DNA of 64,000 bases from Argopecten irradians (taxonomy: Eukaryota > Mollusca > Bivalvia > Pectinida > Pectinidae). A program made the position numbers and the translations under genes. The notes beneath the pieces were generated by a model. That model had not been told where the DNA came from, made no database searches, and saw only the letters and a list, made by a program, of their open reading frames with translations. The stretch covers positions 10,494,609-10,558,608 of the forward strand of contig NC_091149.1 of assembly GCF_041381155.1 (NCBI RefSeq), in the 5' to 3' direction. This document shows, in pieces, positions 3,285-63,772 of the stretch; the stretch's first letter is position 1, and the number at the start of each line of letters is the position of its first letter.

Positions 3285-3366
3285 ATCATGACATATTGTA
3301 TTTGTATGCGGTCAGTTTGGCTAAAATCATGACCTATTGTGTTTACAGCCGGTCAGTTTGGGAAGT
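3285..3366 (+). repeat. Tandem duplication over a hyccin 3' splice site
   Basis: Two copies at a 42-bp period share ATCATGACMTATTGTRTTT and then GGTCAGTTTGG. The second copy holds the working acceptor (GTTTACAG) and the first bases of the exon starting at 3349. The first copy keeps the exon bases GGTCAGTTTGG but has lost the AG. Confidence 0.85.
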
Positions 3367-6300
3367 CTGGCCCTCACCGAGAGTGTGTTATCACGATATA
3401 ACCAAACTGAGGCCAAGATCTGGCAGTCTGGACCCTTTCCACAGTACGAAGCCATCAACAGTCAAAACAGGTAACATGATAGTCAAAACAGGTAACATGA
3501 TAATCAAAACAGGTAACACAGAAACAAGAAATAAATGCATGTGTACGGATTGTTTTGCAGTTTAATTGGTCACTACACCCATCATAACATTTTGTATAAT
3601 TTCTGCAAAACAATTTCTTACAAAATAGTGTTATTTTCCAGCCAACTTTGACACTGTGTGCCACATTAATACATTATTGACATTCCAAAATACCCTTTTA
3701 CATTTCCATCTACCCTTTGACCTCTCCAACTACTGTTTGACCTATTGATTATTAAGCTACTCTTTGACCTCTCTAACTACTGTTTGACCTATTAATTATT
3801 AAGCTACCCTTTGACCTCTCTAACTACTGTTTGACCTATTAATTATTAAGCTACCCTTTGACCTCTCTAACTACTGTTTGACCTATTTATTATTAGGCAA
3901 CACTTTGACCTCTCCAACTACTGTTTGACCTATTAATTATTAAGCTACCCTTTGACCTCTCTAACTACTGTTTGACCTCTCCAACTACCAGTTGACCTAT
4001 TAAGCTACCCTTTGACCTCTCCAACTACCATTTGACCTATTAAGCTACCCTTTGATCTCTCCAACTACTGTTTGACCTATTAAGCTACCTTTTGACCTCT
4101 CCAACTACCGTTTGACCTTTCCAACTACGGTTTGTCCTATTGAGCTACCCTTTGACCTATTAAGCTACCCTTTAACCTCTCAAATTATTATTTTACCTGA
4201 TTAAGCTACTATTTGACGTTTTAAACTATCCTTTGACCCAATTAAGCTATCCTTAGCATTTGGTAATTGAAGTCAGGGCAATTTTATTTTAACAATGACC
4301 CTACTAGATTAAGGTATTAAGAATCATATCAAATTATTAAAAAAAAAAAAATTGACTTCCTCAAAGAGCTTGTAGGATATTCCTCTGTAATTGTATATGA
4401 ACTAAGTGTGTACACCTTCAAGACTTCAAGCCAAAATAGAAAACTTACAACAAGAGTAAAAAGTAAATACATACACACAACATTAGCAGAATCCAATAAT
4501 AGGAAATGTAACGAACTTTACTTCGCTGTGTAACCCCAACTTAATGTAAAATATAATCGAACGAGACGGAGAAAATGCAGTAAGACTGACAGAGCAATGC
4601 TATAACTGTAATCGAAAGAGCCTAATCTCTGGAAATACCATCAGCTTCGTATCCAGGGCCGATTGAATGAACAAATTTCATTAACTTTTTTCTTCCGCTC
4701 ATGGGTAGCTATCGTCATATTTCATTATGTCAACAACTGCATGGCAAGTGGCGTGTCTGAAACACATGTATTGTATAGTTGTTGAATATTGTGGGTGTAA
4801 AATTTTTACGATTTAGTCAATGGAAATTTTTCGTGGATGCTTATTTTCCGTGAATCATATTTATAGATTTTGAAATTATTTAAGTGACAGGCTGTGATAA
4901 ATAATACCGTCATTTTCAGATAATAAGTACGACTCTGGACACCTAAAAAGCTTTAGTTTTTAAGAATTGTGCTTATGATATTCTTGTGTGTGTTTTTAAC
5001 AGTGAATAGTTCATGTGTGATTTTTCGATGTCCTCAAGTAGTACAATGTGTACACTGTCACCTTCAAAACATATGATGCAGGTGACAGTGAACTCATCAT
5101 ACCAGTCATCAAAACAAGTCATGCATGAAATATTCACTGATAGTGTGACAATTTAATATCATTAACAAATAAATGTCATTCTATAAAAATCATGGGCTAT
5201 ATTTTTGAAAGATTTTTGACTACTTGTTGATTCTTGTCTTTTAAAGGTGCTAATATCATCCGTTCATTCGGTCAGACGTTGGCTTTGTGACAATATCTCA
5301 ACAGACATCTACCATTATGATTACACATTGTAATTTGTTTTCCAGACAAGGAATTCTAGCCTACCTCATACAGTGTTACAACGTGGATGTAGCTAACCTG
5401 TCTCCTGTATCTCACCAGATGATGTGTAAAGCCTGCTCAAGGTAACACCAAATATTATCTACAAATTTAAGGTTTTCCACTATTCTGAGAAAGTTAGGTC
5501 AAATCTCATCTTTTTATCTCACTATCCTGAGAAAGTTAAGTCAGATCTCATATTTTTATCTCACTATCCTGAGAAAGTTGGGTCAAATCTCATCTTTTTA
5601 TCTCCCTATCTTGAGAAAGTTAGGCCAAATCTCATCTTTTTATCTCACTATCCTGAGAAATTTAGGTCAAGTCTCATCTTTTTATCTCATTTTCCTGAGC
5701 TTAGCAAGTAAGGCCAAATCTCAATCCCCCCCCCCCACTATCTCCATATAGTCCTACATTACAAACACAAAGTGTGGTTGAGTTATTGTTTTAACTCAAT
5801 CATTATACTTTCGGGTATATCTTCTGTCCTATCTGATATTGAATCATCAGTATTTATTTTTAAGTTGGTTATAATAAATTGTAACAAATTCAAACCTACC
5901 CTTAAACTGTTGTGATTGATATCCTTCAATCAGTAATTTTTTTTAATCAGAATTGCAACGACGGGGTTCACAAACCTTCACCAGTTAGAAGAGGATGAGG
6001 GGCAACCACTAGCCAGCTTTCGTATCGGAGAGGAGAGGTCAAAGGGCAAGAGACGAAGCCAAGTAGGGGAACTACCTCCCAGGATTCCTGTTAGCCCCGC
6101 TCTCCTTGTCGAGATGTTGTCTGGTATATACTACATCATGTAAGTAAAGGGAGATAACTGGGCACATCCTGTCAGCCCTGCATTTATAAGTCAAAAGGGA
6201 GACAACTCTTACTACTTTCTACCTCATCAGATTAATGTTGGTGATATGTAGCAATAGTGTAGTTCAAAAGATTTTGACCTGTCATTGATATAAGAACTGG

Positions 6301-9300
6301 TCATTGTGTGGTGGTTTTTCTCCTGGTACTCCGGCTAAAGCAGTACTGACGGTATGTTATAAAAGAAATGACTGTTCAGAAAATTCCATCAAATGCTGGT
6401 CCCAGATGTTCAAAAGTTAAAAAGCTGTATTACTTGATTAGCAAAATGTTTATTAACCTTATGCTGCAAAACCTGTGATAACTGCAATGGCATATCTATT
6501 ATAAAATATGTAGATATGTAAACACAGGCTTCTATTAGATTTTGTCAAGTTTGTTTGACAAAAGATTATTTCATCTACACTTTAAAATTGTTGATAAACT
6601 GTGGTTAGACTAAATATCTTCTGAACAACTAGGTAAATGTAAAGTTACTCGATGGATGAGAACAGTGATGTGCTATAAACATTATTGTGCCATCTGAGTG
6701 ACCTTGAACTCTGTATGTTCCATATATAGGTGTCAGTGACCTTGAACTCTGTATGTTCTATATATAGGTATCAGTGACCTAGAACTCTGTATGTTCTATA
6801 TATAGGTATCAGTGACCTAGAATTCTGTATATTCTATATATAAGGTATTAGTGACCTTGAATTCTGTATGTTCTATATGTAGGTATTAGTGACCCTTGAA
6901 CTGTGTATGTTCTATATGAAGGTATGAGTGACCTTGAACTTTGTGTTTTCTATAAATAGGTATAATGGACAGACGACCCCAGGTATTAAGGCTGCCGTCG
7001 ATATTCACCACAGAGCTAGCTACGAACTTTATGCGGATGTTTTATTGGTGAGTTATTAGGTGATAATTAAAGCGAATAGTCGGGCAAGTGACTGTAAAAT
7101 CGGTAAAAATGGTATTAATATATCCGGTATAATTTCTTATGAATTAGAAAAATAAAACTTTCCGTCAAAATCGCTGTACATGCGAAGAAAATAATAATAT
7201 CTATGGGAATCCTAAAAGTCCTCCCGACCGGCTATGAGTGCAGTTCAACCTTAACGCATGCGCAACATCCACCACTCTCCGTAGTAAACAAAACATGGCT
7301 ACCGTAGTTTTGAACCAAAAGGTTTCCGCCAAAACAACCAACTGACTCACCTAAAATGCGAAAGGCAAGGCAACGGAGCAGCGACAATCCCAACAAATGA
7401 CTCGGGAAACATTACGACGCATGGAGAGTGTTAATACAACTTGTTATAGTGAAGAGAACAGTTCAAACGGGCACGCGGCTCCGGACCGCTACTGTACGTA
7501 CCTAGGCCTACTACCCGGTACTCCCTGCTCAGCTGATAGTGAGTGAGTCTTCGTATTTTGATCATTATGTAAATAGTCCCTAGCAGTATTTTTTCATAAA
7601 TTAGTGGTCACATATGGTCACATGTTTCATACCTGTTCCCCAATCGCGTAAAACGTAACCCTGGGGTAAATAGCGGTTCTTTAGTGGGGCCTCTTTAGGG
7701 GTAATGAATGCCCTGTATATTTATAAAATGTACCGTTGTAATGCATGTACAGTAAGAATGTAACCGCTAGTGCATTATCAAGCTAAGATTTGTTTCAATT
7801 AATCTATAATATTATGCTACCGGTCAATTCATACAGTTCTGATGTATATATTTATAGATTTTTAATTTGTAAATTTTTGTTCTGTACATGTTCTGGTAGT
7901 GTTATACACATACATTGTATATAGGATTTACATTGTAGGTTAATTGGTAAAATTGTATTGTATATGTTCTGATATACACATATACATATGTACATGTAGG
8001 TTTTAGCTTGTTCTTTAGATATATTTGGAGGACACATACAGTATTATTTCTGGTCATAATAATAAATAGTGTTTGTATATTTATTACAACTGTACCTGGT
8101 TCATGTGTATATGACAAACTTTACAGAGTTGAAATGTACTGCAGCCATGTATCATTTTAAATAATTATTCTGAATTTTTGTTGGAACTATGGATAATGAA
8201 TTTTGTATCTTTTTTTGATTCTATCAAATGCATCAGTGACACATTCACAACTTATAAAATGTTTTCTCTAAAAATAAAAAAAACCCCTGTAGAATGAACC
8301 TACATTTATTCATTTATATATATTTGAAATTGATCATTTCAATTTTTGTCATATTCAACAGATATAAAAAATTGTTGGTTCTTTTTTAGGTCATCTGACC
8401 CGAAGGGTCAGGATGACCTATAGTCATCATGTTTCGTCCGTCGTCGTGCGCCGTCCGCCGTGCGCCGTCCGCCGTGCGCCGTGCGCCGTCCGCCGTGCGT
8501 TAACTTTTCACATTTTGAACTTCTTCTCAAGTTTGACCAGTGGGATTGAGCTGAAACTTACCTGAAATGATCCTGAGATGGTCCCGACAAAGTGTTGTTA
8601 TTTTTCGAGTCGATCCAAAATCCAAGATGGCCGCCACAGCCGCCATCTTGAAAACACATTTTGAACTTCTTCTCAAATTCTACCGGTGGGATTTGGCTGA
8701 AATTTGCATGAAATGATCCTGACATGGTCCCGACAAAGTGTTGTTATTTTTCGGGTCGATCCGAAATCCAAGATGGCCGCCACAGCCGCCATCTTGAAAA
8801 CACATTTTGAACTTCTACTCAAGTTCTACCGGTGCGATTTGGCTGAAACTTGCATGAAATGATCCTGACATGGTCCTGACGAAGTGTTGTTATTTTTCGG
8901 GTCGATCCGAAATCCAAGATGGCCGCCACAGCCGCCATCTTGAAAACACATTTTGAACTTCTTCTCAAGTTCTACCGGTGCGATTTGGCTGAAACTTGCA
9001 TGAAATGATCCTGACATGGTCCCGACAAAGTGTTGTTATTTTTCGGGTCAATCCGAAATCCAAGATGGCCGCCACAGCCGCCATTTTGAAAACACATTTT
9101 GAACTTCTTCTAAAATTCTACCGGTGCGATTTGACTGAAACTTGCATGAAATGATCCTGACATGGTCCCGACAAAGTGTTGTTATTTTTCGGGTCGATCC
9201 GAAATCCAAGATGGCCGCCACAGCCGCCATCTTGAAAACACATTTTTAACTTCTTCTGAAGTTCTACCGGTGCGATTTGGCTGAAACTTGCATGAAATGA

Positions 9301-12300
9301 TCCTGACATGGTCCCAACAAAGTGTTGTTATTTTTCGGGTCGATCCGAAATCCAAGATGGCCGCCACAGCCGCCATTTTGAAAACACATTTTGAACTTCT
9401 TCTCAAATTCTAAGGTAGTCAGATGACCGTTAAGGCCCTTTGGGCCTCTTGTTTCAGGCACCATGCATGCATAGTGACATGAATATAGAAAGTTCATCCC
9501 TTGGACCTGTATACAAGTGTATGTATACATATACATACAATTAGCATCATATGAAGACTGAAAGTAAACTTTTCCAATATGGACCTAGAAGATCATGAAC
9601 AGAACATTTAAACAGTATTCATTTATTAAATGTTCCTTTCAACTGTAATCATTAAATAAAATTATGATGCAATACTTTTTCATTGTTTAACTTTGTAGAA
9701 ATATTTGTTTATATTAGTCCTCTAGATCCAGTGATTATAATTCTTGCATCCATATGCCAGCCCATTTGTTTGTCAGGGCTTGTGAGATAGCTTTTCAATT
9801 ACTTTTAAAATATAAGGATTTTTTTTACATATAGCAATATAGATACCATTGTCTTAGGATTTCTAAATTCTACTTTACAAGAGAGTAGACTCTCAACATA
9901 TAAATAAAACCATAAAACTAGCAAGTTATCTGAAATGTTAAAAATCTTTTTGTCTGAACCAAATTTCACATTTATTGTCTATGTGTAACTTGTACATAGA
10001 CCATTTATGTATTAATACTGTAGTAACAGTGATTACAAACACATAGACTAAAATGTAGTATGTAGTACTATGTACATCTGTCTTTGATTTGAGTTCTAAA
10101 CAAAAAAGTGGTACCTATTGGGAAGTTGTGACTTGGGCGGAGGATGAAATACAGAAGAAATAGCTACACATGGAAAAAAGAAAGATCTACAGTACCATAT
10201 GGATTCAAAGTTGCTCCAAAATCAATGAGACTAAATAACCAAAAAAAGCAGTGTAAACCCCAAATATGCAATGACCAGATCAATGATAAAGCACCCTTCC
10301 ACTTCCAGTTATCTGTAGCTATTTCTTCTATATTTCAACCCCCCACTCAAGTTACAACTTCCCATCCTCATGATTCTTCTGTCTTTTAGCCCCCCCCCCC
10401 CCACCCCCCCCCCCAACACACACATACCTGATTGATTGTCATGTTGTTTCAGGTTCCTATTCAGGTATTATTCCTAAAAACCAAAAAGGGTATACACACT
10501 GTGTACTCTCAAAGGAGGGGAACCACTTCATTCAAAAATGGAATTTACAATTTCATCTTAATTTTGAAATTTTCAATTTAATTATTAATTACTGGACTAT
10601 TAAAACAGTATAGAACCCCTCGGCTACAGACAAAGTACTGTGGTACACATTTCTCTTAATTAATTACTTTTCTTCAACTCAATCATCTTTTTCTCCAGAG
10701 CACAAAAAAGAACAGGAAACAACAGAAAAGGAAAGTAACATACATGTAGGCCTATATGTTTTCTGGAAATATATATGATGTGTTAATTCTCACAGCATAG
10801 GCCTACATGAATGTGAAGAATTAAATATTATCAATGTTTGAGAGAATTTCCTAGTTGTAATTCTATAGCAGCTACATGGAATGTACGTTTACATATATAC
10901 ATTGTACGATACATATACATCATAAAAGTTTCTTTCCTTCCAGCTGGACATTCATGTCATCTCTCTCCAGAACTCAAATATTGTTTACAAAAAAACAAAA
11001 AGAAAAAAAAACAACAACAACCAGAGACATAGATAATTTAATTAAATCTCTGCAAAAACTACACGAATAATTGAACACATATATTGTACTTGTAAAATAT
11101 CTATGTATGAGCTAATTTATTTTCACATCTTTGACAGCTACATGCATGGACGTTCTATGGAACGTTTTCGTGTGGTTTTGAATGGGAAATTATGTTACGA
11201 TTATTTGTATTTAACCTTCATGATTCGGTTCATGTAAAATACGACGAATGCGATGCTGCAATAATTGCCCCTTGCCGGGGCCCCATCTCTGCATCGGCCG
11301 AATATTTGTGTCGATTTCCATGTACAAGATGCTTTTATCGAAAAATGATTAGAAGCATTGTCATTAATGTAAGAATACTTCATTTGCATCAAATGTATCA
11401 TCTCAAAACAACAATTTTCATACCGCATTAGTGGTTTATCACACGAAACGAAACCGACACGACTGAGAAACACATGTCCATGTTGACATTTCCACGCAGC
11501 CTCGTTTTCAAAGAGTTTGGCGAATTTATATTTAGAACTGTGCTAAATTTACACGGGGCTTCCCCAAAATTTCAATGGTCAAAACTGGACACCGTAAGCA
11601 GAACTTGACCATCATTATGGTATACAATGACTTTTGGAAGGCCAAAGAACGCATTTAGACTGGTTTCCTTTGCCCGACTATTCACTTTAAAAGGGTCGTT
11701 AAAACTGCCAAGGAACAAAAATATTGTATCTAAAATCATACTTAATTGAAAAAAAAACTTTTCTCAGTTGGCAAAAAAATTATTAATTCTTGCATGCACA
11801 AAGGGATACAACTCCTGCTTCAGAAAATTATGAATAATCGCTCTTCCCGTGTTAATTAATTGGCAAAAAATAATTGATTCCTGTGTGCAAAAAGGGACAC
11901 AACTCTTATGTCCTGCTTCAGAAAATTGGTAAAATTATATTTCATAATTTTGTATTCAAATGATACAGATAAATACTCCCTAAATTCAAAGGGACACAAC
12001 TGCAACTTCAATCTATGAATTTATTCGTGATTTCAAAGCTATCTAATGTCCCTTTTCAGACAACACTACTTTTGAAACTGAACTTCTTAAAAGGTCATCT
12101 ACTATCCAGACTTCTTTGAGAAGGATTGTCAATTCGTATGTCACTTGTAAAAAGTTATATGATCAGGACATAATTAAGAAAAACAAACTCTATTATTTTA
12201 TTACGAGGTAGGATAATCAGGCCAAAAATTCTAAGGGATGACAACTGTCTTGTTTTCTAGGTAACTAATGCTATCCGGAACTCCCTACAATGTAATGCAG

Positions 12301-13703
12301 CTGGACATTCAGACGGTCCTATGGGAATCAGTATGTCCTTGACCCCAGCGACCTCGGGTCATACCATCTCTAAGTCAGCCATTACAAATGCTTCCTTCAG
12401 GGCACGCAAACTTCCAGGTAAAGCAATACGGATTATCTCAAGATTTCTAAAAAAAAAAAAAAAAGTAAAGGGACAAATCTCTGATGCCAGTTCAAAAGGG
12501 CACAACTAAAATTTCAGTCAGGAGGCATAACTCTTTATCTCAGATAGGGGACATAAGTCTTCGTCTCAGATAGGGGATATAACTCTTATCTCAGACATAA
12601 ATCAAATCTCAGTTAGGTGACATAACACTTTATCTCAGTTAGAGAACATAAGTCTTCGTCTCAGATAGGGGATATAACTCTAATCTCAGACATAAACCAA
12701 ATCTCAGTTAGGGGACATAACTCTTTATCTCAGATAGGGGACATAACTCTTTATCTCAGATAGGGGACATAACTCAAATCTCAGGGGACATAAGTCTTTG
12801 TCTACGAAAAAATATTAAAAAGTCGGGATTTCGATCTCAGATTCTGGTTTCAGCCATCATTGTAGAGTGAAAAATACTTAAAAAGAAAAAAAATATCCTC
12901 CATATACTTAAAAAGAAAAAAAATATCCTCCAGACCGACCGACCGACCCTATTTTTTTTGCCAATGTAACCCTAAACAAACATTTTTTTTATTTTTGCCT
13001 TATCAAATTAATTTTTAATTGCGTCCTGAAAAAATTCTCTTGCACTATGTCCTATATGGAATTTGATATTGATTGCGCATGTACCAAAAGCAAATAAATT
13101 ATTTTATATTATTATTTTGTGTGATTACCTAATTAAACATATACATACAATATTTAATACCAATTATTGTTGAAATGATGAGTATCGTTTATTTTCTGTC
13201 GACGATGGAGCATCTTTAAAGTAAAATAACATTTTTTGTTTAATGTTACAGAGGACATCAGTATTCCTTCTACAGAGGAAGGCGCTAAACTCCAAACGAT
13301 CGATGAAGACGGAGACGCTCACAAGCCCATTCTCAAATCTACAAAATCAGGAAAACTCTCGGCAGCATTCGGGAAAAAAGGAGACAAATTTAAGTTGAAA
13401 GATTCCAAGAAAGAAGGGGAGACAACTCCCAGACAAAACGGTGACTCCGTCGACAGTGTGCAAGTCGGCGTTGTTAAAAACAGTTCTAGATCAATTGTAG
13501 ATAGTATAGAAATGCAGAAATATTCCACGCATGACGACCTTGACGAGAAGATTAGCAGCAGCAGTGGAGGTAGCAGCATTCTACAAATGGCTAAACTCAA
13601 AACTACCACAGCGCTGGGTCTAACAAAGGAACAAAAAAACAAACATTCTCGAAATCCATCTTCATCGTCTGTAAATACTGAAAATTATAGTACTGATTTA
13701 TAG
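3349..13703 (+). CDS. FAM126A: Hyccin (FAM126 family), six 3' exons, 5'-partial
   Basis: Hyccin is an adaptor of the plasma-membrane PI4KIIIalpha complex (with TTC7 and EFR3) that makes PI4P. Exons are 3349-3470, 5346-5441, 5951-6139, 6960-7047, 12261-12417 and 13252-13703. All have AG/GT borders and matching phases, and together they give 367 residues and a TAG stop. Recognisable segments are LGSLALTESVLSRYN, NRQGILAYLIQCYNVD, RIPVSPALLVEMLSGIYY, MYNGQTTPGIKAAVDIHHRA and ELYADVLLVTNAIRNSL. They follow the order of the human hyccin core (SIGSMALTES, QNRFEVLTFLLLCYN, RIPVSSGFMVQMLTGIYF, FYNGEWDLAQKALDD, LLVANAIKASL). The last exon is a long Ser/Lys-rich, low-complexity tail, as in the family. 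The N-terminal roughly 150 residues lie left of the window. Vertebrates have two paralogues, so A versus B cannot be assigned and the symbol is a family label. Introns carry minisatellites and a 4.6 kb mobile element. Confidence 0.93.
3460..3522 (+). repeat. 21-bp tandem copies of a hyccin 5' splice site
   Basis: Three copies of (A/G)TCAAAACAG|GTAACA. The first contains the true exon end (…AGTCAAAACAG) and donor (GTAACA). The next two, at 3481 and 3502, repeat the last 11 exon bases plus the donor. Reading on past the first donor in the coding frame meets TAA at once. Confidence 0.95.
3664..4250. repeat. Minisatellite of TTTGACCT half-sites
   Basis: A variable unit of about 20-48 bp built from TTTGACCTCTCCAACTACTG and TTTGACCTATTAATTATTAA. 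It lies in the hyccin intron between 3471 and 5345. Each unit carries one or two AGGTCAAA motifs on the minus strand. Confidence 0.9.
4251..5345 (+). other. Hyccin intron remainder
   Basis: AT-rich unique sequence. I see no exon, RNA gene or clear repeat before the acceptor TTTTCCAG at 5338-5345. Confidence 0.6.
5463..5725 (+). repeat. 41-bp minisatellite, about 6 units
   Basis: Units read ATCCTGAGAAAGTTAGGTCA followed by AATCTCATCTTTTTATCTCACT. The array starts about 20 bases after the donor at 5442 but does not include exon sequence. It ends in a C tract near 5726. Confidence 0.9.
6692..6965 (+). repeat. 38-bp array copying the acceptor of hyccin exon 6960-7047
   Basis: About seven units of AGTGACCTTGAACTCTGTAT plus GTTCTATATATAGGTATC. 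The last unit is the functional one: TTCTATAAATAG followed by GTATAATGG, the start of the exon. Earlier units repeat the TATAG acceptor and the first four exon bases (GTAT). Several retain a usable AG. Confidence 0.92.
7071..11686. mobile_element. 4.6 kb non-autonomous TTAA element in hyccin intron
   Basis: The ends are inverted: AGCGAATAGTCGGGCAAG at the left and TGCCCGACTATTCACT at the right, each bordered by TTAA (7067-7070 and 11687-11690). About 200 subterminal bases at each side match the short copies at 53856-54193 and 54492-54747. The interior carries a nested tandem-core element (8388-9453), a C tract at 10390-10424 and AT-rich sequence. No transposase domain is seen, and frames such as 10144-10389 are not recognisable. 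TTAA targets with AG-starting ends fit a Kolobok-like rather than a piggyBac-like mobilising enzyme, but that is inference. It begins only 23 bases after the donor at 7047. Confidence 0.8.
8388..9453 (+). mobile_element. Tandem-core element A (Helentron-associated type)
   Basis: The 5' end is a hairpin (GGTCATCTGACCC, loop GAA, GGGTCAGGATGACC). The 3' side has GTCAGATGACCGTTAAGG, then hairpin GGCCCTTTGGGCC and CTTGTTT. Between lie a CG-rich stretch of GTGCGCCGTCC repeats and about six to seven units of roughly 145 bp. Each unit has CAAGATGGC…GCCATCTTG as a hairpin. Conserved ends around a tandem core, with no inverted terminal repeat in the usual sense, fit the Helentron-associated elements (pearl-like) that I recall from bivalves. 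The assignment is from memory. Short open frames across the core are repeat artefacts. Confidence 0.75.
12480..12800 (+). repeat. ~26-bp minisatellite
   Basis: Degenerate units of CTCAGATAGGGGACATAACT plus CTTTAT. It lies about 60 bases after the hyccin donor at 12418, in the last intron. Confidence 0.85.
12870..13010. mobile_element. Truncated MITE with TAACCCTAAACAAACA end
   Basis: The right part (GACCGACC repeats, then GTAACCCTAAACAAACATT) matches the right end of the element at 37978-38182. A 29-base segment is duplicated inside it. Its left end is not clear. Confidence 0.6.
13012..13215. mobile_element. Partial MITE, AGATGCTCCACCG family
   Basis: The right end GATGGAGCATCT is followed by TTAA at 13216-13219. 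The body matches the complete copies at 50252-50609 and 56908-57280. The left half is missing. It ends 36 bases before the acceptor of the last hyccin exon. Confidence 0.75.
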
Positions 13704-17893: not shown

Positions 17894-19392
17894 GAGGTTT
17901 TTATTTTTTGCGACCCGAAGGGTCAGGATGACCTATTGTCATCATGCACCGTCCGTCGTCGTGCGCCGCCGTGCGCCGTGCGCCGTCCGCCGTGCGCCGT
18001 GCGTAAACTTTTCATTCAAACAACTTCTTCTCAATAACCGGAAGGCCCAGGGTACTCATATTTGGCCTGTAGGTTGCTGGGATGGAGGGCTACCAAGTTT
18101 GTTCAAATGAATGACCTTGACCTTCATTCAAGGTCACAGGGGTCAAAAAGGCCAAAATCTTTAAACGACTTCTTCTCAAGAACCAGAATGCCCAGGGTAC
18201 TGATATTTGGCCTGTAGGATGCTGGGATGAAGGGCTACCAAGTTTGTTCAAATAAATGACCTTGACCTTCATTCAAGGTCACAGGGGTCAAATAGGCTAA
18301 AATTCTTTAAACAACTTCTTGTGAATAACTAAGAGGCCTAGAGACCTGATATTAAGCCTGTAGCATGCTGGGATGAAGTGCTACAAAGTTTGTTCGAATA
18401 AATGACCTTGACCTTCATTCAAGGTCACAGGGGTCAAATAGGCTAAAATTCTTTAAACAACTTCTTGTGAATAACTAAGAGGCCTAGAGACCTGATATTA
18501 GGCCTGTGGCATGCTGGGATGAAGGGCTACCAAGTTTGTTCAAATAAATGACCTTGACCTTCATTCAAGGTCACAGGGGTCAAATAGGCTAAAATTCTTT
18601 AAACAACTTCTTGTGAATAACTAAGAGGCCTAGAGACCTGATATTAGGCCTGTGGCATGCTGGGATGAAGGGCTACCAAGTTTGTAAAAAAATGACCTTG
18701 ACCTACATTCAAGGTCACGGGGGTCAAATAGGCTAAAATCTTTAAAGGACTTCTTCTCAAGAACCAGAAGGCTCAGGGTACTGATATTAGACCTGTGACA
18801 TGCTTGGATGAAGGGCTACCAAGTTTGTTCAAATGAATGACCTTAACCTTCATTCAAGGTCACAGGGGTCAAAAAGGCTAAAATCCTTTAAACAACTTCT
18901 TGTCAATAACTAAGAGGCCTAGAGACCTGATATTGGGCCTTTGACATGCTGGGATGAAGGGCTAACAAATTTGTTCAAATGAATGAACTTGATCTTCATT
19001 CAAGGTCATGGGGGTCAAAAAGGCTAAAATCTTTAAACGACTTCTGCTGAAGACCCAGAAGGCCCATGGTACTGATATTTGGCCTGTAGCATGCTGGGAT
19101 GAAGGGCTACCAAGTTTGTTCAAATGAATGACCTTGACCTTCATTCAAGGTCACGGGGGTCAAATAGGCTAAAATCTTTAAATGACTTCTTCTCAAGAAC
19201 CAGAAGGCCCAGGGTACTGATATTGGGCATGTAGCATGCTGGGATGAAGGGCTACAAAGTTTGTTCAAATGAATTACCTTGACCTTCAATCAAGGTCACG
19301 GGTCAAATAGGCTAAAATCTTTAAACGACAATGTTGTATTGTACTAATAGTCAGATGACCGTTAAGGCAAATGAGGTTTTTATTTTTTGCGA
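17894..19392 (+). mobile_element. Tandem-core element B, end-trimmed, 20-bp flanking repeats
   Basis: It begins inside the usual 5' hairpin (GACCCGAAGGGTCAGGATGA) and stops inside the usual 3' end (AGTCAGATGACCGTTAAGG). The core has about nine units of roughly 145 bp, with the signature ATGACCTTGACC…TCAAGGTCA. A perfect 20-base direct repeat, GAGGTTTTTATTTTTTGCGA, borders it at 17894-17913 and 19373-19392. Short minus-strand frames of the KVKVIHLNKLGSPSSQH type are repeat artefacts. Confidence 0.8.
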
Positions 19393-21250: not shown

Positions 21251-21261
21251 TCCAGTCGACC

Positions 21262-37500: not shown

Positions 37501-39911
37501 GCATTGTTAAAAATTTAGCTATCTTTGTTCACAAGGCTAATGAAGTTAGAAATTCAATATTATTTGATAATTGATATATTTGTTATGTGCATCCTTTCGC
37601 TGATTTCTTTTTTTTATTTATATATATATAGTGTACATCCTTTTTCCAGAAAAGTCTGTTTACCATTGTCATGTCTGTATTTGTTTTGCACAAAGGCTTT
37701 TTAGCCTATTTGCTAAATGAAATAAAGATTATTCATATTCATAAAGATTATTCATATATAACTGACTGACCCGCCCACCTTGAATCCATTTCCTTTTCAT
37801 TCTATTATATAGCTGATTGTCTCGCCCACTTTGATTTCTTTTCATTTTTCTATTACATAATATAACTATTTGTATTTCATAGCTGACTGCCTCTCACAAT
37901 TTGATTTCAATTTATTTCTTCTATTGTAGCTGACTGTTCCGCCCCATGGTTTCATGGTAATAGGCCAAACAAAAGCATATGCCTGTTTAGGGTTACACCG
38001 GCAAAAAAATAGAGTCGGTAGGTCGGGAGGATTTTTTTAATTGTCCTTTATTCTAAAATTATGGCCGAAACCGGAGTCTGAAAATGAAATTTCCACTTTT
38101 ATTTTATTTTCGAAGAAAAGTGCGAAAAAAAATAGTTTCGAGGGTAAAAATTTAGGGTCGGTCGGGTAACCCTAAACAAACATATTATTTTTTGGCCTTA
38201 TAAAGCTGCCAGCCCTACACATCTTGGCTTTATTTTAATGTTTCTATTGTATTATTTAGCTGACAGCCCCGCCCACTTTGGCTTCATTTTAATTTGTCTC
38301 CTGTACCATATAGCTGATTGCCCCGCCCACCTCGGCTACATCTACAACGATAACCTGGACTGGTGTTACCGGCTAGTCACTGGACTAGGATTAAATGTCC
38401 CTAGTGCACTCAGTACATGTGGTTCAGATGGAGCGCATCTTATTCGGATCAACTCAGTTGAACGACAAAATTTTATAACCTCCTATCTGCGTAAGTCTAT
38501 TTCAGTTTTAATGTAATATAAATATCGTATAGCCGGTTTTTTTTATGAATCAAAATTTTCGATTTGCTCTAAAAACGAGAAAATCAAAATTTAGCGGTTT
38601 TAAATTTTCGCCATCCAACCAATATGCCGCTAAATCGCGAAATATCATTGCCACTAAAATATGAACCCTAGGAATATAAAGGGTTTTACAGTATCAATAA
38701 ATGTAAATGTAAACAAGCTGTGTAAAATGTTCTTCCGATGAGTACCATCTTCTTTAAAATCTGTATCCGCTGTGTAAAATGTTCTTCCGATAAGTACCAT
38801 CTTCTTTAAAATCTGTATCCAAACACCAAATTGATTAGGTCAGAGCAATTATTACACAAATGTAATTTCTCGAATACTTCACCTAAGTTTTACCTGATCT
38901 ACCTGCACGGAATTTACTCCAGTGCAGGTGTATACATACCTCAACATTTTAAAATATTACCTGATGTTAGGATTAATATAACATGCAACTTACCTAATAT
39001 TTTCCATCCATGTATCACCTGAATTCTGTGTAGTGGTTAAGTGTCCTGTTCTACATGTACAGTGTGCGTCAATCACAAGTCAAGTCAGAAATTAAAGTTA
39101 ATTCAAAAATAAGCTCAAGTAGTGATATCGCATGTACGTATCGTCAACATTCTTTGCATATGAAATAACATGTCATTACTTACCTCGAATTACGGAGTAT
39201 AAATTTCATGTTTAAAAATATCAGAAAAAAGTTATTTTGAATTCCGTCGAAAACTCAAAATTACATACGTTATAATTTCATGAAAGACTATAGATGGGAT
39301 TACCAAATTTACGCATTTACCAAGATATCCAAGTTGAAATCAAGTTAGTTGAACTTTTCATGCAAAATTATGCTTCATGCAAAACGTATGGTAAAACGTT
39401 AGACGTTTGTTTTAACTTTTCATGCAAATGTACATTGTTTGCTTAAAATAAGATTGATGTTTGTTTGAACTTTTCATGCAGACGTATGTTTATGAAATAG
39501 ACGTTTGCTTAAATTTTTAATGCAAATATATGCTAATATGACATATGTGTTTGGATTAACATAAGTTTTACTGTTTATCAATGCAATAATGATTGTTTTT
39601 TAAGCTTAAGCTGAGAAACTAATATTTTCTAGTAGTATCAAATAATGCGAGTTATATGGGAGCTAAAGCTAAAATCCCTAACGTTTTCTTTTCCAGTATC
39701 AAATAGTGTTAATTCTATATATATCGGAGGCCATTCTGAGAATAGGGATAACAACTTTGTGTACGAGGATGGCACCCCGCTACCCTACACCTCCTGGGAC
39801 ACAAACCAGCCTGTCAATCAAGAAAGAATTTACATCGAACTAAAAGGAGCACAGTATGTATGGGCTAATGGCCATGGGACGATGAGTCGTGACTTCATGT
39901 GTGAAATATAA
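34575..39911 (+). CDS. Secreted PAN-like / C-type lectin-like protein, three exons
   Basis: Exons are 34575-34878, 38314-38490 and 39697-39911. The phases agree and give 231 residues. Residues 1 to about 18 form a signal peptide (MVVGIHHLFLLFTLGSC). Next comes a cysteine-bearing segment (LLRCAVQCSDTSCLSLSYHA, then CRVFDF) like a short PAN/apple domain. Exons 2-3 form a C-type lectin-like fold: ADCPAHLGYIYNDNLDWCYR, GAHLIRINSVERQNFITSYL, IYIGGHSENRDNNFVYEDG, LPYTSWDTNQPVNQERIY and FMCEI at the stop. The N-terminal Cys pair and the outer Cys pair are present. The inner pair and a clear EPN/QPD sugar motif are not, so calcium-dependent sugar binding is doubtful. Such proteins often act in mollusc innate recognition, which is inference here. 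Both internal acceptors are flanked by repeat copies of themselves. Confidence 0.88.
34945..36540 (+). repeat. 69-bp minisatellite in lectin intron 1
   Basis: About 20-23 units read CATGTTTCAAGTCAAGTTAA, TTGGAGTTGATAGTCACTTG and ATCATAACTAATATTTTGAA. They are most alike at 35370-36300 and decayed at both ends. Because 69 is a multiple of three, open frames of FQVKLIGVDSHLIITNILNF arise (35367-36387). They are not preceded by any exon signal, and I do not regard them as coding. Confidence 0.95.
36541..37246 (+). other. Lectin intron 1, unique part
   Basis: No exon or repeat was recognised. Confidence 0.5.
37247..37745 (+). mobile_element. LINE 3' fragment with zinc-knuckle end
   Basis: Begins LIKALIKMRTSSHRLYIETG and continues CFNCAKIEDECHFILECPIY. 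It ends at a TGA-closed frame (stop near 37574), then a 3' UTR and the tail AAATAAAGATTATTCATATT. The CxxC…H…C end matches the C-terminus of the LINE at 46443-48371, so it is a severely 5'-truncated relative on the opposite strand. It lies in lectin intron 1. Confidence 0.8.
37757..38335 (+). repeat. Degenerate array copying the acceptor of lectin exon 2
   Basis: Seven copies of (T)AG|CTGAYTGCCCCGCCCAC with a pyrimidine-rich stretch between them: at about 37757, 37811, 37881, 37927, 38208, 38258 and the real one at 38311. Units are about 50-70 bases. At least five copies keep AG before the exon-like bases. A MITE (37978-38182) interrupts the array. Confidence 0.85.
37978..38182. mobile_element. 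~205-bp MITE, GTTTAGGGTTAC ends
   Basis: Inverted ends are CTGTTTAGGGTTAC and GTAACCCTAAACAAA, with GTCGGTAGGTCGGG/GGTCGGTCGGG just inside. A possible CATAT direct repeat flanks it. It has inserted into the exon-edge array of the lectin gene. A relative is at 12870-13010. Confidence 0.7.
38717..38820 (+). repeat. 52-bp tandem duplication in lectin intron 2
   Basis: Two copies of GCTGTGTAAAATGTTCTTCC…TTTAAAATCTGTATCC are nearly identical. No exon sequence is included. Confidence 0.9.
38821..39604 (+). other. Lectin intron 2 remainder
   Basis: AT-rich, with several loose copies of TTTGAACTTTTCATGCAAA between 39345 and 39530. No exon recognised. Confidence 0.5.
39605..39705 (+). repeat. Duplication over the acceptor of lectin exon 3
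   Basis: Two diverged copies at a 61-bp period. AGCTTAAGCTGAGAAACTAA then TTTTCTAGTAG|TATCAAATA is matched by AGCTAAAGCTAAAATCCCTA then TTTTCTTTTCCAG|TATCAAATA. The second is the working acceptor at 39696/39697. The first still has AG before the same nine exon bases. Confidence 0.8.
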
Positions 39912-45646: not shown

Positions 45647-45678
45647 CTTCTCAGCAGTTTTACCAGGTTTGGAATGAG

Positions 45679-45684
45679 TATATA
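45679..45684 (-). promoter_or_regulatory. Candidate MIOX TATA box
   Basis: TATATA (in GTAGTATATACTC on the minus strand) lies about 35 bases before the MIOX start codon. That is the right distance for a short 5' UTR. There is no other support. Confidence 0.3.
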
Positions 45685-49010: not shown

Positions 49011-49014
49011 TTAA

Positions 49015-54747: not shown

Positions 54748-54776
54748 TTGACGATAGTTTTGAACAACCGTGTCCA

Positions 54777-54839: not shown

Positions 54840-54939
54840 GTAAGTTTAGTACCTTAAAGGTGAAGCTAAAGAACAAACGCCGTCAATTTGATGAAAAGAT
54901 TTTATTACACAACACCAAAAAACAAGGTAGGTCATTATA

Positions 54940-56823: not shown

Positions 56824-59800
56824 TTAGTTTCTCTCCTTCTTCTTCTCCTGAAAGAGAAATATCTCGGTTAATATACAATGAAATAATGAGATTTTCACAT
56901 TACTTAAAGATGCTCCACCGCCGACAGAGCATAAATGATACTCATCATTTGAACAATAATTGGTGTTTAATCCTGTGTATATACATTGTATGTCTAATTA
57001 ACACAAAAAATAATATAATTTTTTTTTTTTTTTTGCTTTTGGTGCATGCCCAATCAGTACTTCATTCCATAAAGTATATAGTGCCACGGAATTTTTTCGG
57101 GTTGTAATTAATTATTTTTGGTATTTTCATCTTGACCTAAAATTAGAAGTTAAAACTTTTCAATGAAACTTTTCAATGGTGGTAATGGTGTAAAGTAACT
57201 TTGTAACTGACGAAAAATATTAATTTGTCTGCTTTTGTTTTTTAGTGAGGAGAATTCTTTTTGTCACCGGTGGAGCATCTTTAATCAATGTTATAATATA
57301 ATATATATGCAAATGTTGACAATTAAAAGTAATTTCTCAATCATATAGGTATACACATAGTGTGATATCCATTTGTTAAACATGACTTTTCTTACAGTTA
57401 TACTGAAAAATAATTGTCTAACTTTTGAATTATCTTTACTTTTCATTTCAGATGAAGAGAAATATGTTTGCCTGTTAAGTAAGATTTTCATATCAGTTCA
57501 TTAAGGTTTTACGAAAAGTAATAAAATAATTCTGTATTTTTCAGTCAGTTATATACAATGAATGGTGTCCAACTATTTACTATGATTTTTTCAAGAGTTA
57601 GACAGAGAGATAATTTCTAACAATTTTTCAAAAATTTATCGAAGTTCTACAGAGAAACAACGTTTTCTGATTTTTTTTATTAAAACAATCAGAATTATGG
57701 AGGTGAATACTCTACCTTGTTGGACAGAATGATGAGAAGGCGTCGGAAGATTTGGATGAAGTCCAGGAACAGATCAACGCTGTGCCTGTATCACAAAGTA
57801 AACAAAACAATGAGGGCGAGTCTAACAATAACAAACGAGAAAACAATGGGGGCTATGGTCTGAGTATATTTTATTTTCATGTCTGCATTTGTCATTGCCA
57901 CATTTTTTATTTTTCTAGATTAGGTATCACTTTAATCTTTATTTTTCGATAAACAATATTTTTCAAAAGACCTTTTGCCTCCCTTGATGAAATAGACTTT
58001 TTCTCTCTTTTTTTTTCTAGATGAATTGACACCTTCATATTTTTACATCCCTGGATGCTATAGATATATTTCTAGATGAGATGACACCCTTATTTTTTTT
58101 ATTTTTGCCTCCCTGAATGCTAGACCTATAAAATGAAGTCAGTATATCCCTGGATGCTATAGACCTACCAGATGTAGTCAGTATCTCCCTGGGTGCTATA
58201 GACCTACCAGATGTAGTCAGTATAACCCTGGATGCTATAGACCTACTAGATGTAGTCAGTATCTCCCTGGATGTTATAGACCTACCAGATGTAGTCAGTA
58301 TCTCCCTGGATGTTATAGACCTACTAGATGTAGTCAGTATCTCCCTGGATGTTATAGACCTACCAGATGTAGTCAGTATCTCCCTGGATGTTATAGACCT
58401 ACCAGATGTAGTCAGTATCTCCCTGGAAGCTATAGATCTACCAGATGTAGTCAGTATAACCCTGAATGCTATAGACCTACCAGATGTAGTCAGTATCTCC
58501 CTGGATGCTATAGACCTACCAGATGTAGTCAGTATCTCCCTGGATACTAAAGACCTACCAGATGTAGTCAGTATCTCCCTGGATGCTATAGACCAACAAA
58601 ATGTAGTCAGTATCTCCCTGGATGCTATAGACCTACCAGATGTAGTCAGTATCTCACTGAATGCTATAGACCTACTAGATGTAGTCAGTATCTCCCTGGA
58701 TGCTATAGATCTACCAGATGTAGTCAGAATCTCCCTGGATGCTATAGACCTACAAGATGTAGTCAGTATCTCCCTGGATGCTATAGACTTACAAGATGTA
58801 GTCAGTATCTCCCTGGATGTTATAGACCTACCAGATGTAGTCAGTATCTCCCTGGATGCTATAGACCTACCAGATGTAGTCAGTACCTCCCTGGATACTC
58901 TAGACCTACAAGATGTAGTCAGTATCTCCCTGGATGCTATAGACCTACCAGATGTAGTCAGTATCTCCCTTGATGCTATAGACCTACCAGATGTAGTCAG
59001 TACCTCCCTGGATGCTATAGACCTACCAGATGTAGTCAGTACTCCTTGATGCTATAGACCTACCAGATGTAGTCAGTACCTCCCTTGATGCTATAGACCT
59101 ACCAGATGTAGTCAGTACCTCCCTGGATGCTATAGACCTACCAGATGTAGTCAGTATCTCCCTGGATACTATAGACATACCAGATGTAGTCAGTACTCCC
59201 TGATGCTATAGACTTACCAGATGTAGTCAGTATCTCCCTGGATGCTATAGACCTACCAGATGAAGTCAGTATCTCCCTGGATGTTATAGACCTACCAGAT
59301 GTAGTCAGTATCTCCCTGGATGCTATAGACCTACCAGATGTAGTCAGTATCTCCCTGGATGCTATAGACCTACCAGATGTAGTCAGTATCTCCCTGGATG
59401 CTATAGACCTACCAGATGTAGTCAGTATCTCCCTGAATACTATAGACCTACCAGATGTAGTCAGTATCTCCCTGGATGCTATAGACCTACCAGATGTAGT
59501 CAGTACCTCCCTGGATGCTATAGACCTACCAGATGTAGTCAGTACCTCCCTGAATACTATAGACCTACCAGATGTAGTCAGTATCTCCCTGGATGCTATA
59601 GACCTACCAGATGTAGTCAGTACCGGATGCTATAGACCTACCAGATGTAGTCAGTATCTCCCTGATATACTATAGACCTACCAGATGTAGTCAGTATCTC
59701 CCTGGATGCTATAGACCTACCAGATGTAGTCAGTATCTCCCTGGATGCTATAGACCTACCAGATGTAGTCAGTATCTCCCTGGATGCTATAGACCTACCA

Positions 59801-62800
59801 GATGTAGTCAGTATCTCCCTGGATGCTATAGACCTACCAGATGTAGTCAGTATCTCCCTGGATGCTATAGACCTACAAGATGTAGTCAGTACCTCCCTGG
59901 ATGCTATAGACCTACCAGATGTAGTCAGTATCTCCCTGGATGCTATAGACCTACCAGATGTAGTCAGTATCTCCCTGGATGCTATAGACCTACCAGATGT
60001 AGTCAGTATCTCCCTGGATGCTATAGACCTACCAGATGTAGTCAGTATCTCCCTGGATGCTATAGACCTACCAGATGTAGTCAGTATCTCCCTGGATGCT
60101 ATAGACCTACCAGATGTAGTCAGTATCTCCCTGGATGCTATAGACCTACCAGATGTAGTCAGTATCTCCCTGGATGCTATAGACCTACCAGATGTAGTCA
60201 GTATCTCCCTGGATGCTATAGACCTACCAGATGTAGTCAGTATCTCCCTGGATGCTATAGACCTACCAGATGTAGTCAGTATCTCCCTGGATGCTATAGA
60301 CCTACCAGATGTAGTCAGTACCTCCCTGGATGCTATAGACCTACCAGATGTAGTCAGTATCTCCCTGGATGCTATAGACCTACCAGATGTAGTCAGTACT
60401 CCCTGATGCTATAGACCTACCAGATGTAGTCAGTACTCCCTGGATGCTATAGACTTACCAGATGTAGTCAGTATCTCCCTGGATGCTATAGACCTACCAG
60501 ATGAAGTCAGTACCTCCCTGGATGCTATAGACCTACCAGATGTAGTCAGTATCTCCCTGAATACTATAGACCTACCAGATGTAGTCAGTATCTCCCTGGA
60601 TGCTATAGACCTACCAGATGTAGTCAGTATCTCCCTGGATGCTATAGACTTACAAGATGTAGTCAGTACCTCCCTGGATGCTATAGACCTACCAGATGTA
60701 GTCAGTATCTCCCTGGATGCTATAGACCTACCAGATTTAGTCAGTATCTCCCTGGATGCTATAGACCTACCAGATGTAGTCAGTATCTCCCTGGATGTAA
60801 AGACCTACCAGATGTAGTCAGTATCTCCCTGGATGCTATAGACCTACCAGATGTAGTCAGTATCTCTCCTGGATGCTAAAGACCTACCAGATGTAGTCAG
60901 TATCTCCCTGGATGCTATAGACCTACCAGATGTAGTCAGTATCTCTCTGGATGCTATAGACCTACCAGATGTAGTCAGTATCTCCCTGGATGCTATAGAC
61001 CTACCAGATGTAGTCAGTATCTCCCTGGATGCTATAGACCTACCAGATGTAGTCAGTATCTCCCTGGATGCTATAGACCTACCAGATGTAGTCAGTATCT
61101 CCCTGGATGCTATAGACCTACCAGATGTAGTCAGTATCTCCCTAGATGATATAGACCTACCAGATGTAGTCAGTATCTCCCTGGATGCTATAGACCTACC
61201 AGATGTAGTCAGTATCTCCCTGGATGCTATAGACCTACCAGATGTAGTCAGTATCTCCCTGGATGCTATAGACCTACCAGATGTAGTCAGTATCTCCCTG
61301 GATGCTATAGACCTACCAGATGTAGTCAGTATCTCCCTGGATGCTATAGACCTACCAGATGTAGTCAGTATCTCCCTGGATGCTATAGACCTCCCAGATG
61401 TAGTCAGTACCTCCCTGGATGTTATAGACCTACCAGATGTAGTCAGTATCTCCCTGGATGCTATAGACCTACCAGATGTAGTCAGCATCTCCCTGGATGC
61501 TATAGACCTACCAGATGTAGTCAGTACCTCCCTGGATGTTATAGACCTACCAGATGTAGTCAGTATCTCCCTGGATACTATAGACCTACCAGATGTAGTC
61601 AGTATCTCCCTGGATGCTATAGACCTACCAGATGTAGTCAGTATCTCCCTGGATGCTATAGACCTACCAGATGTAGTCAGTATCTCCCTGGATACTATAG
61701 ACCTACCAGATGTAGTCAGTATCTCCCTGGATGCTATAGACCTACCAGATGTAGTCAGTATCTCCCTGGATGCTATAGACCTACCAGATGTAGTCAGTAT
61801 CTCCCTGGATGCTATAGACCTACCAGATGTAGTCAGTATCTCCCTGGATGCTATAGACCTACCAGATGTAGTCAGTATCTCCCTGGATGCTATAGACCTA
61901 CCAGATGTAGTCAGTATCTCCCTGGATGCTATAGACCTACCAGATGTAGTCAGTATCTCCCTGGATGCTATAGACCTACCAGATGTAGTCAGTATCTCCC
62001 TGGATACTATTATCTCCCTGGATGCTATAGACCTACCAGATGTAGTCAGTATCTCCCTGGATACTATTATCTCCCTGGATACTATAGACCTACCAGATGT
62101 AGTCAGTATCTCCCTGGATACTATTATCTCCCTGGATGCTATAGACCTACCAGATGTAGTCAGTATCTCCCTGGATGCTATAGACCTACCAGATGTAGTC
62201 AGTATCTCCCTGGATGCTATAGACCTACCAGATGTAGTCAGTATCTCCCTGGATGCTATAGACCTACCAGATGTAGTCAGTATCTCCCTGGATGTTATAG
62301 ACCTACCAGATGTAGTCAGTACCTCCCTGGATGCTATAGACCTACCAGATGTAGTCAGTATCTCCCATTCTGCTCTTCTCCACTATCATCTGTGTATCAT
62401 ACAGTACAAAGGCACAGAAGAGAAACAGACCGGCGTACAGCTGGAACTGGAAACAAAATATTCATCTTAATAAACAAAATACAATTTCAGTACAAGGGTT
62501 CTGACAATCACAAGGATAAAATTGAACTATCAAGAAAACAATGACCCTCAACTTCTACGTTGAGAATTTTTAATCCCATTTTTAGTGGATGCCCATCCAG
62601 TCATACACCCGGCACATCCTTAAATGTTCCTATTTGTTATAGGACATTAAACTAATCCAATCAATTCAAAAGGAATTTGAAAGGAGTGGTGGGTAGATCA
62701 TTGGTTTTTTTTATAGAAACATTATCTTCGAAAATATCACACAAAAATATTTTAAATTTGGAATAAAACAGCACAACTCAATATAAAAGGATTTGTAATT

Positions 62801-63772
62801 TATTTTTAGAATTTTATTCTAATAGATTTATAAATTTAAATATATTCTGGATGTTTCATATATGAGACTTAATTTGACAATACAAATACTCACTTCAAAG
62901 AGAATCCTTGATCCAATAAAGATGTTAAGAAGTCCAGCCAGACACAGCCAGCTCAAAGTGCTCAGCAAAAAGCCTGAGTAATACAAACATATCAGGGTAC
63001 AAAATGTTATATTAGTCAGCTCAAAGTGCTCAGTAGAAATCCTGAGTAATACAAACATATCAGGGTACAAAATGTAACATTAGCCAGCTCAAAGTGCTCA
63101 GTAGAAAGCCTAAGTAATACAAACATACAAGGTTACTAAATGTAACATTAGGCAGCTCAAAGTGCTCAACAGAAAGCCTGAGTAACACACATATCATGGT
63201 ATAAAATTTAACATTATTCAGAAGAAAAAACTTTCGCAAAACAGCAAAAAGTATCGTCAATGTATGAGACACCAGTGAATCTGGGAATTCAACCTAAAAT
63301 AATTCATTTCTTATAAGTAATATAATCTTAAAACCAATTAGTGCAGACAAAATGTAACTCTTGTGGAAATGAGCTGCAAAATCATGTGCTCTATAACATT
63401 GGCATCCATGGAGACTCAGGGATAATAGTGGAAACTCAAGGACAAGTTTTTTTTCTGTGAAGGGGAGTATGTAAACTTGTGGAAACTAGATCAAAATACC
63501 TGGTTTGAACACACTTACCTCCGATGTACAGAAACCTGGTGAGAATACTAAACCAAAATATAACAGACTTACCTCCCATGTACAGGTAGGTGAGAATACT
63601 AAACCAAAATAGAACAGACTTACTTCCCATGTACAGGTAGGTGAGAACACTAAACCAAAATAGAACAGACTTACCTCCCATGTACAGGTAGGTGCGGTTG
63701 GTATTATACAGGGCTGCCAAAGAGAAGCTGATGAAGATGACGGATGTCCCGAGGAATGCTGTTACGATGATA
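56824..63772 (-). CDS. TMBIM6: Bax inhibitor-1 (TMBIM6), five 3' exons, 5'-partial
   Basis: BI-1 is a multi-pass ER membrane protein that lowers ER calcium and restrains cell death. Exons (minus strand, in transcript order) are 63675-63772, 62894-62973, 62346-62446, 57716-57785 and 56824-56847. Every border is AG/GT and all phases match, giving the last 123 residues. They read [109 protein letters not shown] and SNKEKKKERN. These align with human BI-1 from IIPTAFMGTAMIFTCF to the end, including FVLxDTQLIIEKAE, DYIWHCIDLFLDF and the Lys-rich tail. N-terminal exons lie right of the window. Three of the nine splice edges are embedded in tandem repeats made from the edge itself, one filling a 4.56 kb intron. 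Confidence 0.95.
56908..57280. mobile_element. 373-bp MITE, AGATGCTCCACCG family
   Basis: Ends AGATGCTCCACCG and CGGTGGAGCATCT are perfect inverses between TTAA at 56904-56907 and 57281-57284. It sits in the last TMBIM6 intron, 57 bases from the final exon. Confidence 0.92.
57975..62365 (-). repeat. 39-bp array made of a TMBIM6 exon end plus its donor
   Basis: About 105-110 units. On the gene's strand each reads GGGAGATACTGACTACATCT, G|GTAGGTCTATAGCATCCA. The first 20 or so bases equal the end of exon 62346-62446 (GDTDYI and two bases of W), and the next equal its donor and first intron bases. The real exon end is the first unit. Units near 57975-58130 are decayed. Those at 59700-60350 and 61550-62300 are nearly identical. 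Variants with an extra TATCTCCCTGGATACTAT recur at 61990-62130. Continuing in the coding frame meets TAG directly after TGG. Confidence 0.97.
62447..62893 (-). other. TMBIM6 intron, unique
   Basis: AT-rich, with nothing recognised. The acceptor at its 3' end is TTTGTTTCCAG. Confidence 0.6.
62949..63215 (-). repeat. 68-bp array copying a TMBIM6 acceptor, four units
   Basis: On the gene's strand each unit has ATTACTCAG followed by 25 exon bases (GCTTTTTGCTGAGCACTTTG AGCTG in the real exon). Copy edges lie at 62973 (real), 63041, 63109 and 63177, an exact 68-base period. Two extra copies keep CAG and one has TAG, so all remain candidate 3' splice sites. Since 68 is not a multiple of three, use of a decoy would shift the frame. 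Confidence 0.95.
63512..63693 (-). repeat. 51-bp array copying a TMBIM6 donor, four units
   Basis: On the gene's strand each unit has ACCTACCTGTACATGGGAG|GTAAGT plus intron bases CTGTTCTATTTTGGTTTAGT. Copy edges lie at 63675 (real), 63624, 63573 and 63519. The first two steps are 51 bases and keep the frame open: each adds [17 protein letters not shown]-like residues. The donor GTAAGT or close to it is present in every copy. Confidence 0.95.

Follow-up and report, generated by a model that had tools for sequence, protein, structure and literature searches.

The question raised by this 64,000-nucleotide stretch of Argopecten irradians DNA (contig NC_091149.1, positions 10,494,609 to 10,558,608; hereafter the window) is why tandem repeats recur at the exon borders of three genes, namely hyccin, a gene encoding PAN and C-type lectin domains, and TMBIM6. 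In each array the splice site is part of the repeated unit, flanked by exon sequence on one side and by sequence of the adjoining intron on the other. We consider it probable, at roughly 0.8, that these boundary-spanning arrays are minisatellites of the type termed 'mirages' in the lancelet, and that they are tolerated since one intact exon and splice site remains beside them. This reading is based on units that contain the boundary, on copied splice signals, and on exon interiors that are free of arrays.

Exon borders were set from consensus splice sites together with the reading frame, giving 22 edges (10 donors and 12 acceptors) in the three genes; one uncertain donor, at 57716 in TMBIM6, was excluded from the count. 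All tests were confined to the 64-kb window, which has a GC content of 34%. Splicing produced uninterrupted frames across the six exons of hyccin that lie in the window, the three of the lectin gene, and the four of TMBIM6. Pfam searches of the spliced products returned Hyccin (E-value 1.2e-58) for the first, Lectin_C (1.2e-9) and PAN_1 (1.1e-4) for the second, and Bax1-I (2.4e-29) for the third, with residues 1–113 of the query matching positions 95–207 of the Bax1-I profile. A Protein Data Bank (PDB) search with TMBIM6 gave no match, and no hyccin exons upstream of 3349 were found within the window. The alignment with human hyccin is gapless at junctions 3470/5346 and 6139/6960 and has a 2-residue gap elsewhere, in the first exon. 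The TMBIM6 acceptor at 62446 (minus strand) reads TTTCCAG/TTCCAG, a six-base tandem acceptor of which the first site was modelled and the second also keeps the frame.

Arrays with at least 4 exonic bases were detected by Tandem Repeats Finder (TRF) at seven of the 22 edges (3349, 3470, 6960, 38314, 63675, 62973, and 62346), comprising 3 of the 10 donors and 4 of the 12 acceptors (Table 1). Their units measure 21–68 bp, occur in 2 to 108 copies, and capture 4–28 bases of exon. The initial annotation of this DNA had listed eight of 24 edges, with units of 21–68 bp in 2 to more than 100 copies, captured pieces of 4 to about 25 bases, and an effect on donors and acceptors alike. The core of that observation holds, including unit lengths, copy numbers, the involvement of both kinds of site, and the minimum capture of 4 bases, whereas the maximum is 28 bases and the count becomes 7 of 22. 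The edge that dropped out is the lectin acceptor 39697 (39640..39720, plus strand), which has no TRF array at a score of 50 and whose best edge-spanning copy (z = 0.7) is at the level of chance.

Table 1. Gene models and boundary-spanning arrays in the window (positions counted from its first nucleotide; a slash within a unit marks the exon border)
Feature	Positions	Strand	Basis or description
hyccin, exons	3349-3470, 5346-5441, 5951-6139, 6960-7047, 12261-12417, 13252-13703	+	splicing frame, Pfam, human alignment
PAN + C-type lectin gene, exons	34575-34878, 38314-38490, 39697-39911	+	splicing frame, Pfam
TMBIM6, exons	63772-63675, 62973-62894, 62446-62346, 57785-57716 (last end uncertain)	-	splicing frame, Pfam
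hyccin acceptor 3349, array	3281..3361	+	TRF 41 bp x2; 28 intronic and 13 exonic bases
hyccin donor 3470, array	3460..3518	+	TRF 21 bp x2.8; unit AGTCAAAACAG/GTAACATGAT; 11 exonic bases
hyccin acceptor 6960, array	6697..6963	+	TRF 38 bp x7; 4 exonic bases
lectin acceptor 38314, array	37740..38341	+	TRF array 38200-38341, 54 bp x2.6; 28 exonic bases
TMBIM6 donor 63675, array	63507..63694	-	TRF 51 bp x3.6; 20 exonic bases; four GTAAG donors
TMBIM6 acceptor 62973, array	62949..63221	-	TRF 68 bp x4; 25 exonic bases; AG in 4/4 copies
TMBIM6 donor 62346, array	58109..62366	-	39-bp unit GGGAGATACTGACTACATCTG/GTAGGTCTATAGCATCCA; 108 copies; 21 exonic bases

The copied splice signals differ in their state of preservation. 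The hyccin donor 3470 is intact in three copies, and the upstream copy at acceptor 3349 has lost its AG. At acceptor 6960, AG followed by GT was read in all seven copies, one of which is shifted by an inserted base and was missed by a fixed-position script that scored AG in 6 of 7; this edge is the weakest case because only 4 exonic bases are captured. In the lectin gene, four degenerate copies at 37760–37960, with some 240 bases of different sequence between them and the TRF array, carry TAG in three instances and no AG in the fourth. The same gene has a 111-bp ×1.9 array (34319–34573) that stops one base before its ATG at 34575, so duplication also affects the bases immediately preceding the start codon.

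The largest array, at the TMBIM6 donor 62346, has kept the donor GT in 106 of its 108 copies, and its exonic part encodes the exon end GDTDYIW. Averaged over the copies, the edge unit itself among them, identity to the edge unit is 0.973 for the exonic part and 0.965 for the intronic part, indicating that both parts of the unit evolve alike. The identity of about 97% between the 108 copies and the edge unit fits concerted evolution, but youth of the array could account for it as well. According to the array coordinates, array sequence makes up 4237 of the 4560 bases in one TMBIM6 intron, which makes evident the intron growth that had been proposed for such repeats.

The seven edges were further evaluated using an edge-centred search for copies, with 60 first-order Markov resamples per edge and omission of the 14 bases closest to it in either direction. 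This search supported six of the seven TRF edges; it is blind to 3470 because the 21-bp unit there is shorter than the excluded stretch, and that edge is carried by TRF. At the other 14 edges the same search, with the nearest 14 bases omitted, found no decayed copies above the resample null.

The cluster of mirage-type arrays is real and exceeds the chance models tried, although three views of chance (coverage, sliding, and seeding) gave different answers. Among 61 TRF rows, 57 were kept after those with a period below 10 were dropped, and an array at 1–1176, cut by the window end, was omitted from the slide and seeding nulls. Arrays cover 9985 of 23176 intron bases (43%, or by our own calculation 31% once the TMBIM6 intron carrying the 108-copy array is set aside) versus 7 of 22 edges (32%), so edges are not favoured per base. 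When arrays were moved within introns in 20,000 trials, the expected number of captured edges was 0.59 with 15 exonic bases allowed, 1.13 with 28 (the observed maximum, set post hoc), 1.57 with 40, and 2.23 with 60; no trial reached seven at 15 or 28 bases, and the P values at 40 and 60 bases were 0.00005 and 0.0016. In the seeding null, a unit of the observed length was dropped anywhere in the estimated pre-expansion intron, and 1.61 or 1.98 edges were expected versus seven observed (P = 0.0006 or 0.0023, using the shorter or the best TRF period). Six edges remained when 8 exonic bases were required (P = 0.0012 or 0.0047). The seeding P value was 0.0067 without hyccin, 0.0018 without the lectin gene, and 0.012–0.097 across four variants that omitted TMBIM6. 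The window was chosen for its pattern, and these chance P values are uncorrected for that choice. For the complete set the count exceeds random placement (seven edges against about 1–2 expected, seeding P = 0.0006–0.002), and this excess loses force without TMBIM6 (P = 0.01–0.1).

Moreover, the position of the array ends is one-sided. Of the array ends found within 30 nucleotides (nt) of an edge, all seven are exonic and none is intronic, and 37 nt separate an edge from the next nearest array; by our arithmetic, a one-sided sign test gives this a chance of 1 in 128. All seven ends being exonic, the arrays have not simply grown up to the exon, a candidate explanation that was rejected on this ground. 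In addition, 19 arrays occur in the 23.2 kb of intron of the three genes (one of them cut by the window end) versus nine in the 38.7 kb between genes (binomial P = 0.001). The between-gene part of this comparison may contain unannotated genes.

Within the exons, arrays occupy 122 of 2149 bases overall and are absent from the 1369 bases whose distance to each exon end exceeds 30 nt. Arrays are thus excluded from exon interiors and permitted at the edges, where exon and site survive intact in the copy adjoining the exon body. The proposal that such duplications are tolerated through a remaining working copy fits this distribution, in which edges and introns are hit and 0 of 1369 interior bases are. 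That the real site is always the one nearest the exon body, as had also been pointed out, is true of the gene models and is to be expected, given that the exon body is unique sequence; the exon-nearest site is probably the one used.

The arrays would then have arisen as follows. A short tandem duplication that by chance straddled an exon border would create a unit of exon piece, splice site, and intron piece, and it would be tolerated as the copy adjoining the exon body could still supply an intact exon and site. The boundary unit would subsequently expand and homogenise like any minisatellite, presumably by slippage or unequal exchange under near-neutrality, and its intronic copies would be decoy splice sites, expected to be removed with the intron.

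The direction from exon to array was assessed by homology. In hyccin and TMBIM6 the exonic part of the units belongs to the coding sequence of the gene itself: in hyccin, the pieces at 3349 and 3470 (the PVSLGSLALTES start and the SQNR end) align with the human protein, and the TMBIM6 pieces GDTDYIW and TYLYMGG fall inside the Bax1-I match. To judge from these alignments, the hyccin 3349 and 3470 arrays and the TMBIM6 arrays were most likely derived from exon borders and not the reverse. Homology does not establish this direction for 6960, with its 4 bases, or for the lectin acceptor, where it is nevertheless the presumed one. The lectin edge at 38314 is placed by its signal and frame, the Lectin_C match beginning at residue 129, past the exon piece contained in the array. 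A dispersed element landing beside exons was also considered and is weakly opposed, the BLAST matches of all seven units lying within their own arrays in the window; this search was insensitive, recovering one of two copies at 3349 and four of seven at 6960.

Use of the additional copies would have mixed consequences for the predicted proteins. A later donor at 3470 or 62346 leads to an in-frame stop within the first copy (TAA at 3470), and any later 62346 donor yields a predicted protein ending in DYIW. In contrast to these stops, the later 63675 donors add 51, 102, or 156 nt in frame and stop-free, and the 54-bp lectin unit is open in frame. The TMBIM6 intron between 63675 and 62973 offers four donors and four acceptors, of whose 16 pairings four, including the normal one, are in frame without a stop; all four use the exon-nearest acceptor, and pairings with the three upstream acceptors of the 62973 array hit a stop. 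Four of the seven units have lengths divisible by three, which is not unusual, and only 4 of the 16 TMBIM6 pairings are open; in-frame units were therefore rejected as a sign of coding use. The splice-site turnover and intron sliding that the initial annotation had envisaged were not demonstrated: every edge joins in frame, and the hyccin junctions are gapless against human.

Other explanations were weighed against these findings. It is possible, although we consider it doubtful, that chance and window selection suffice, since in minisatellite-rich introns some arrays must cross borders. Arrays indeed hold 43% of intron bases against 32% of edges, and the seeding expectation is already about 2, but no slide trial in 20,000 reached seven edges at 28 exonic bases (P = 0.0016 at 60) and seven of seven near-edge ends are exonic, both results being uncorrected for the choice of window. 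We regard as somewhat unlikely a genome-wide mutational habit in which exon borders are the favoured starting points of duplication, with AGGT microhomology or co-transcriptional breaks as conceivable causes. The excess of seven edges over the 1.6–2.0 expected under uniform seeding (P = 0.0006–0.0023) and the greater density of arrays within the three genes than between them (binomial P = 0.001) point in this direction. However, a single window picked for its pattern was analysed, the P value rises to as much as 0.012–0.097 without TMBIM6 (0.0067 without hyccin and 0.0018 without the lectin gene), the 7 of 22 edges are not above the per-base intron coverage of 43% (31% minus the 108-copy intron), and the pre-expansion intron lengths are estimates. 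The preferred start at exon borders offered in the initial annotation is accordingly only suggested, and a mutational preference or genome-wide habit is possible.

That the extra copies are useful, as alternative sites, backup sites, or in-frame peptide variants, appears improbable. Three alternative TMBIM6 pairings of the 16, besides the normal one, and the 54-bp lectin unit are open, but the hyccin 3470 and TMBIM6 62346 copies bring immediate stops, the other 12 TMBIM6 pairings hit a stop, the proportion of units divisible by three is not unusual, and reverse transcription PCR (RT-PCR) in the lancelet suggests regular splicing, as far as the accessible part of that report goes (PMC3087553). 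Recruitment of a pre-existing intronic minisatellite or mobile repeat as the end of an exon, that is, intron sliding from array to exon, would likewise yield sequence common to both sides of the border, and it could accommodate both the lectin piece, which lies outside the Lectin_C match, and 6960, where 4 exonic bases are shared. It is highly improbable nonetheless, given that the exonic parts at hyccin 3349 and 3470 encode residues common to human hyccin, that the TMBIM6 parts lie inside the Bax1-I match, and that the units have no match elsewhere in the window, albeit in an insensitive search.

The reading as tolerated mirages also has points that weigh against it. The upstream lectin copy at 38260 would join in frame too, so homology does not settle which of the lectin copies is the real edge. 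The exonic share of the unit (0.11–0.54) tends to be smaller than uniform (Kolmogorov–Smirnov P = 0.07). Furthermore, seven captured edges exceed the 1.6–2.0 expected from duplications that start anywhere and are merely tolerated, so tolerance by itself may be an incomplete account. A lineage in which exon borders are hot spots of minisatellite birth, with a sizeable share of all splice sites tandemly self-copied, is an idea we hold to be unlikely. If true, it would imply that decoy sites keep being supplied, that introns grow, and that new introns may form, and single genes would provide natural tests of splice-site choice among more than 100 near-identical donors. If border arrays proved equally frequent genome-wide, mirages would no longer be confined to the lancelet cases found but would count as a general phenomenon, and the early stage postulated by tandem-duplication models of intron gain could be observed in them. 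The TMBIM6 intron already amounts to an experiment made by nature, presenting 106 GT donors in a near-identical 39-base context among which the spliceosome must pick the one attached to the exon; a literature search on the choice among identical donors returned no match.

Other features of the window were also noted. A single intron-free open frame at 44783–45691 (minus strand) encodes a myo-inositol oxygenase (Pfam MIOX, E-value 1.8e-108, profile positions 3–249 of 249) and has the appearance of a retrocopy or of a gene that lacks introns. An open frame of 653 amino acids at 46443–48404 (minus strand) has a translation with motifs that we take to be those of a reverse transcriptase of the long interspersed nuclear element (LINE) type. 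Two arrays, at 8509–9412 and 18018–19326, have a 146-bp period and G+C-rich 7-bp repeats before each, and are possibly related satellites.

Several known systems resemble these arrays in part. One study, to go by its title, reportedly concerns a minisatellite whose repeated donors supply the transcript with several splice sites; the repetition of donors is common to both cases, and the title speaks for the idea that extra copies may be useful. Rogers in 1989, Gao and Lynch in 2009, and Hellsten in 2011 are, from the titles, said to treat the gain of introns through tandem genomic duplication. Both that process and the present arrays involve tandem copies of splice-site-containing sequence in genes, but in the former an exonic AGGT copy gives rise to a new intron, whereas here the borders of existing introns are copied. 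This mode of intron gain is covered in the consulted portion of a review (PMC3443670). Dual-specific AGGT splice sites in tandem repeats, as in UBC and VCX3A, likewise place splice signals in repeat units, as the AG/GT of the hyccin 6960 units does, but the cases seen in the portion consulted have whole introns within a gene's tandem repeats, unlike here (PMC10809524). Human tandem repeats at exon–intron boundaries in segmental duplications, which may create novel introns, are also minisatellite expansions touching such boundaries; in the part of the account available they are recent primate paralogs with mostly coding repeats, and are not described as copied borders of old introns (PMC2812944). 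Among the literature matches listed, seen in part, no border array from a mollusc or bivalve was recognised, and an abalone gene has an intronic 27-bp minisatellite that the portion consulted does not place at a border.

The closest counterparts are the lancelet mirages, described in the accessible parts of two reports as minisatellite-like duplications of intron/exon boundaries in several genes (PMC3087553, PMC3902484), which answers, as regards the kind, the statement of the initial annotation that it knew of no description of such arrays as a genome-wide habit. There, 5' and 3' boundaries are both involved, AG or GT is present in many but not all copies, and the Adh3 units measure 10–72 bp (PMC3087553); PGBD5 and troponin C are further mirage genes (PMC3902484). 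A genome-wide habit was not found described in these portions of the published accounts. The present arrays similarly straddle donors or acceptors with short units of exon piece, splice site, and intron piece, and retain AG or GT in many but not all copies (106 of 108 at 62346, with AG lost at 3349 and in one lectin copy). Mirages, so far found in cephalochordates, are further characterised by lengths that vary between alleles or cells and by concerted evolution of their units. The lancelet mirages come with evidence of instability and with RT-PCR, whereas the present arrays are known from one sequence alone. The kind is thus already known, and what sets this window apart from the lancelet cases is a high density, with seven of 22 edges in three genes within 64 kb, and one extreme array of 108 copies.

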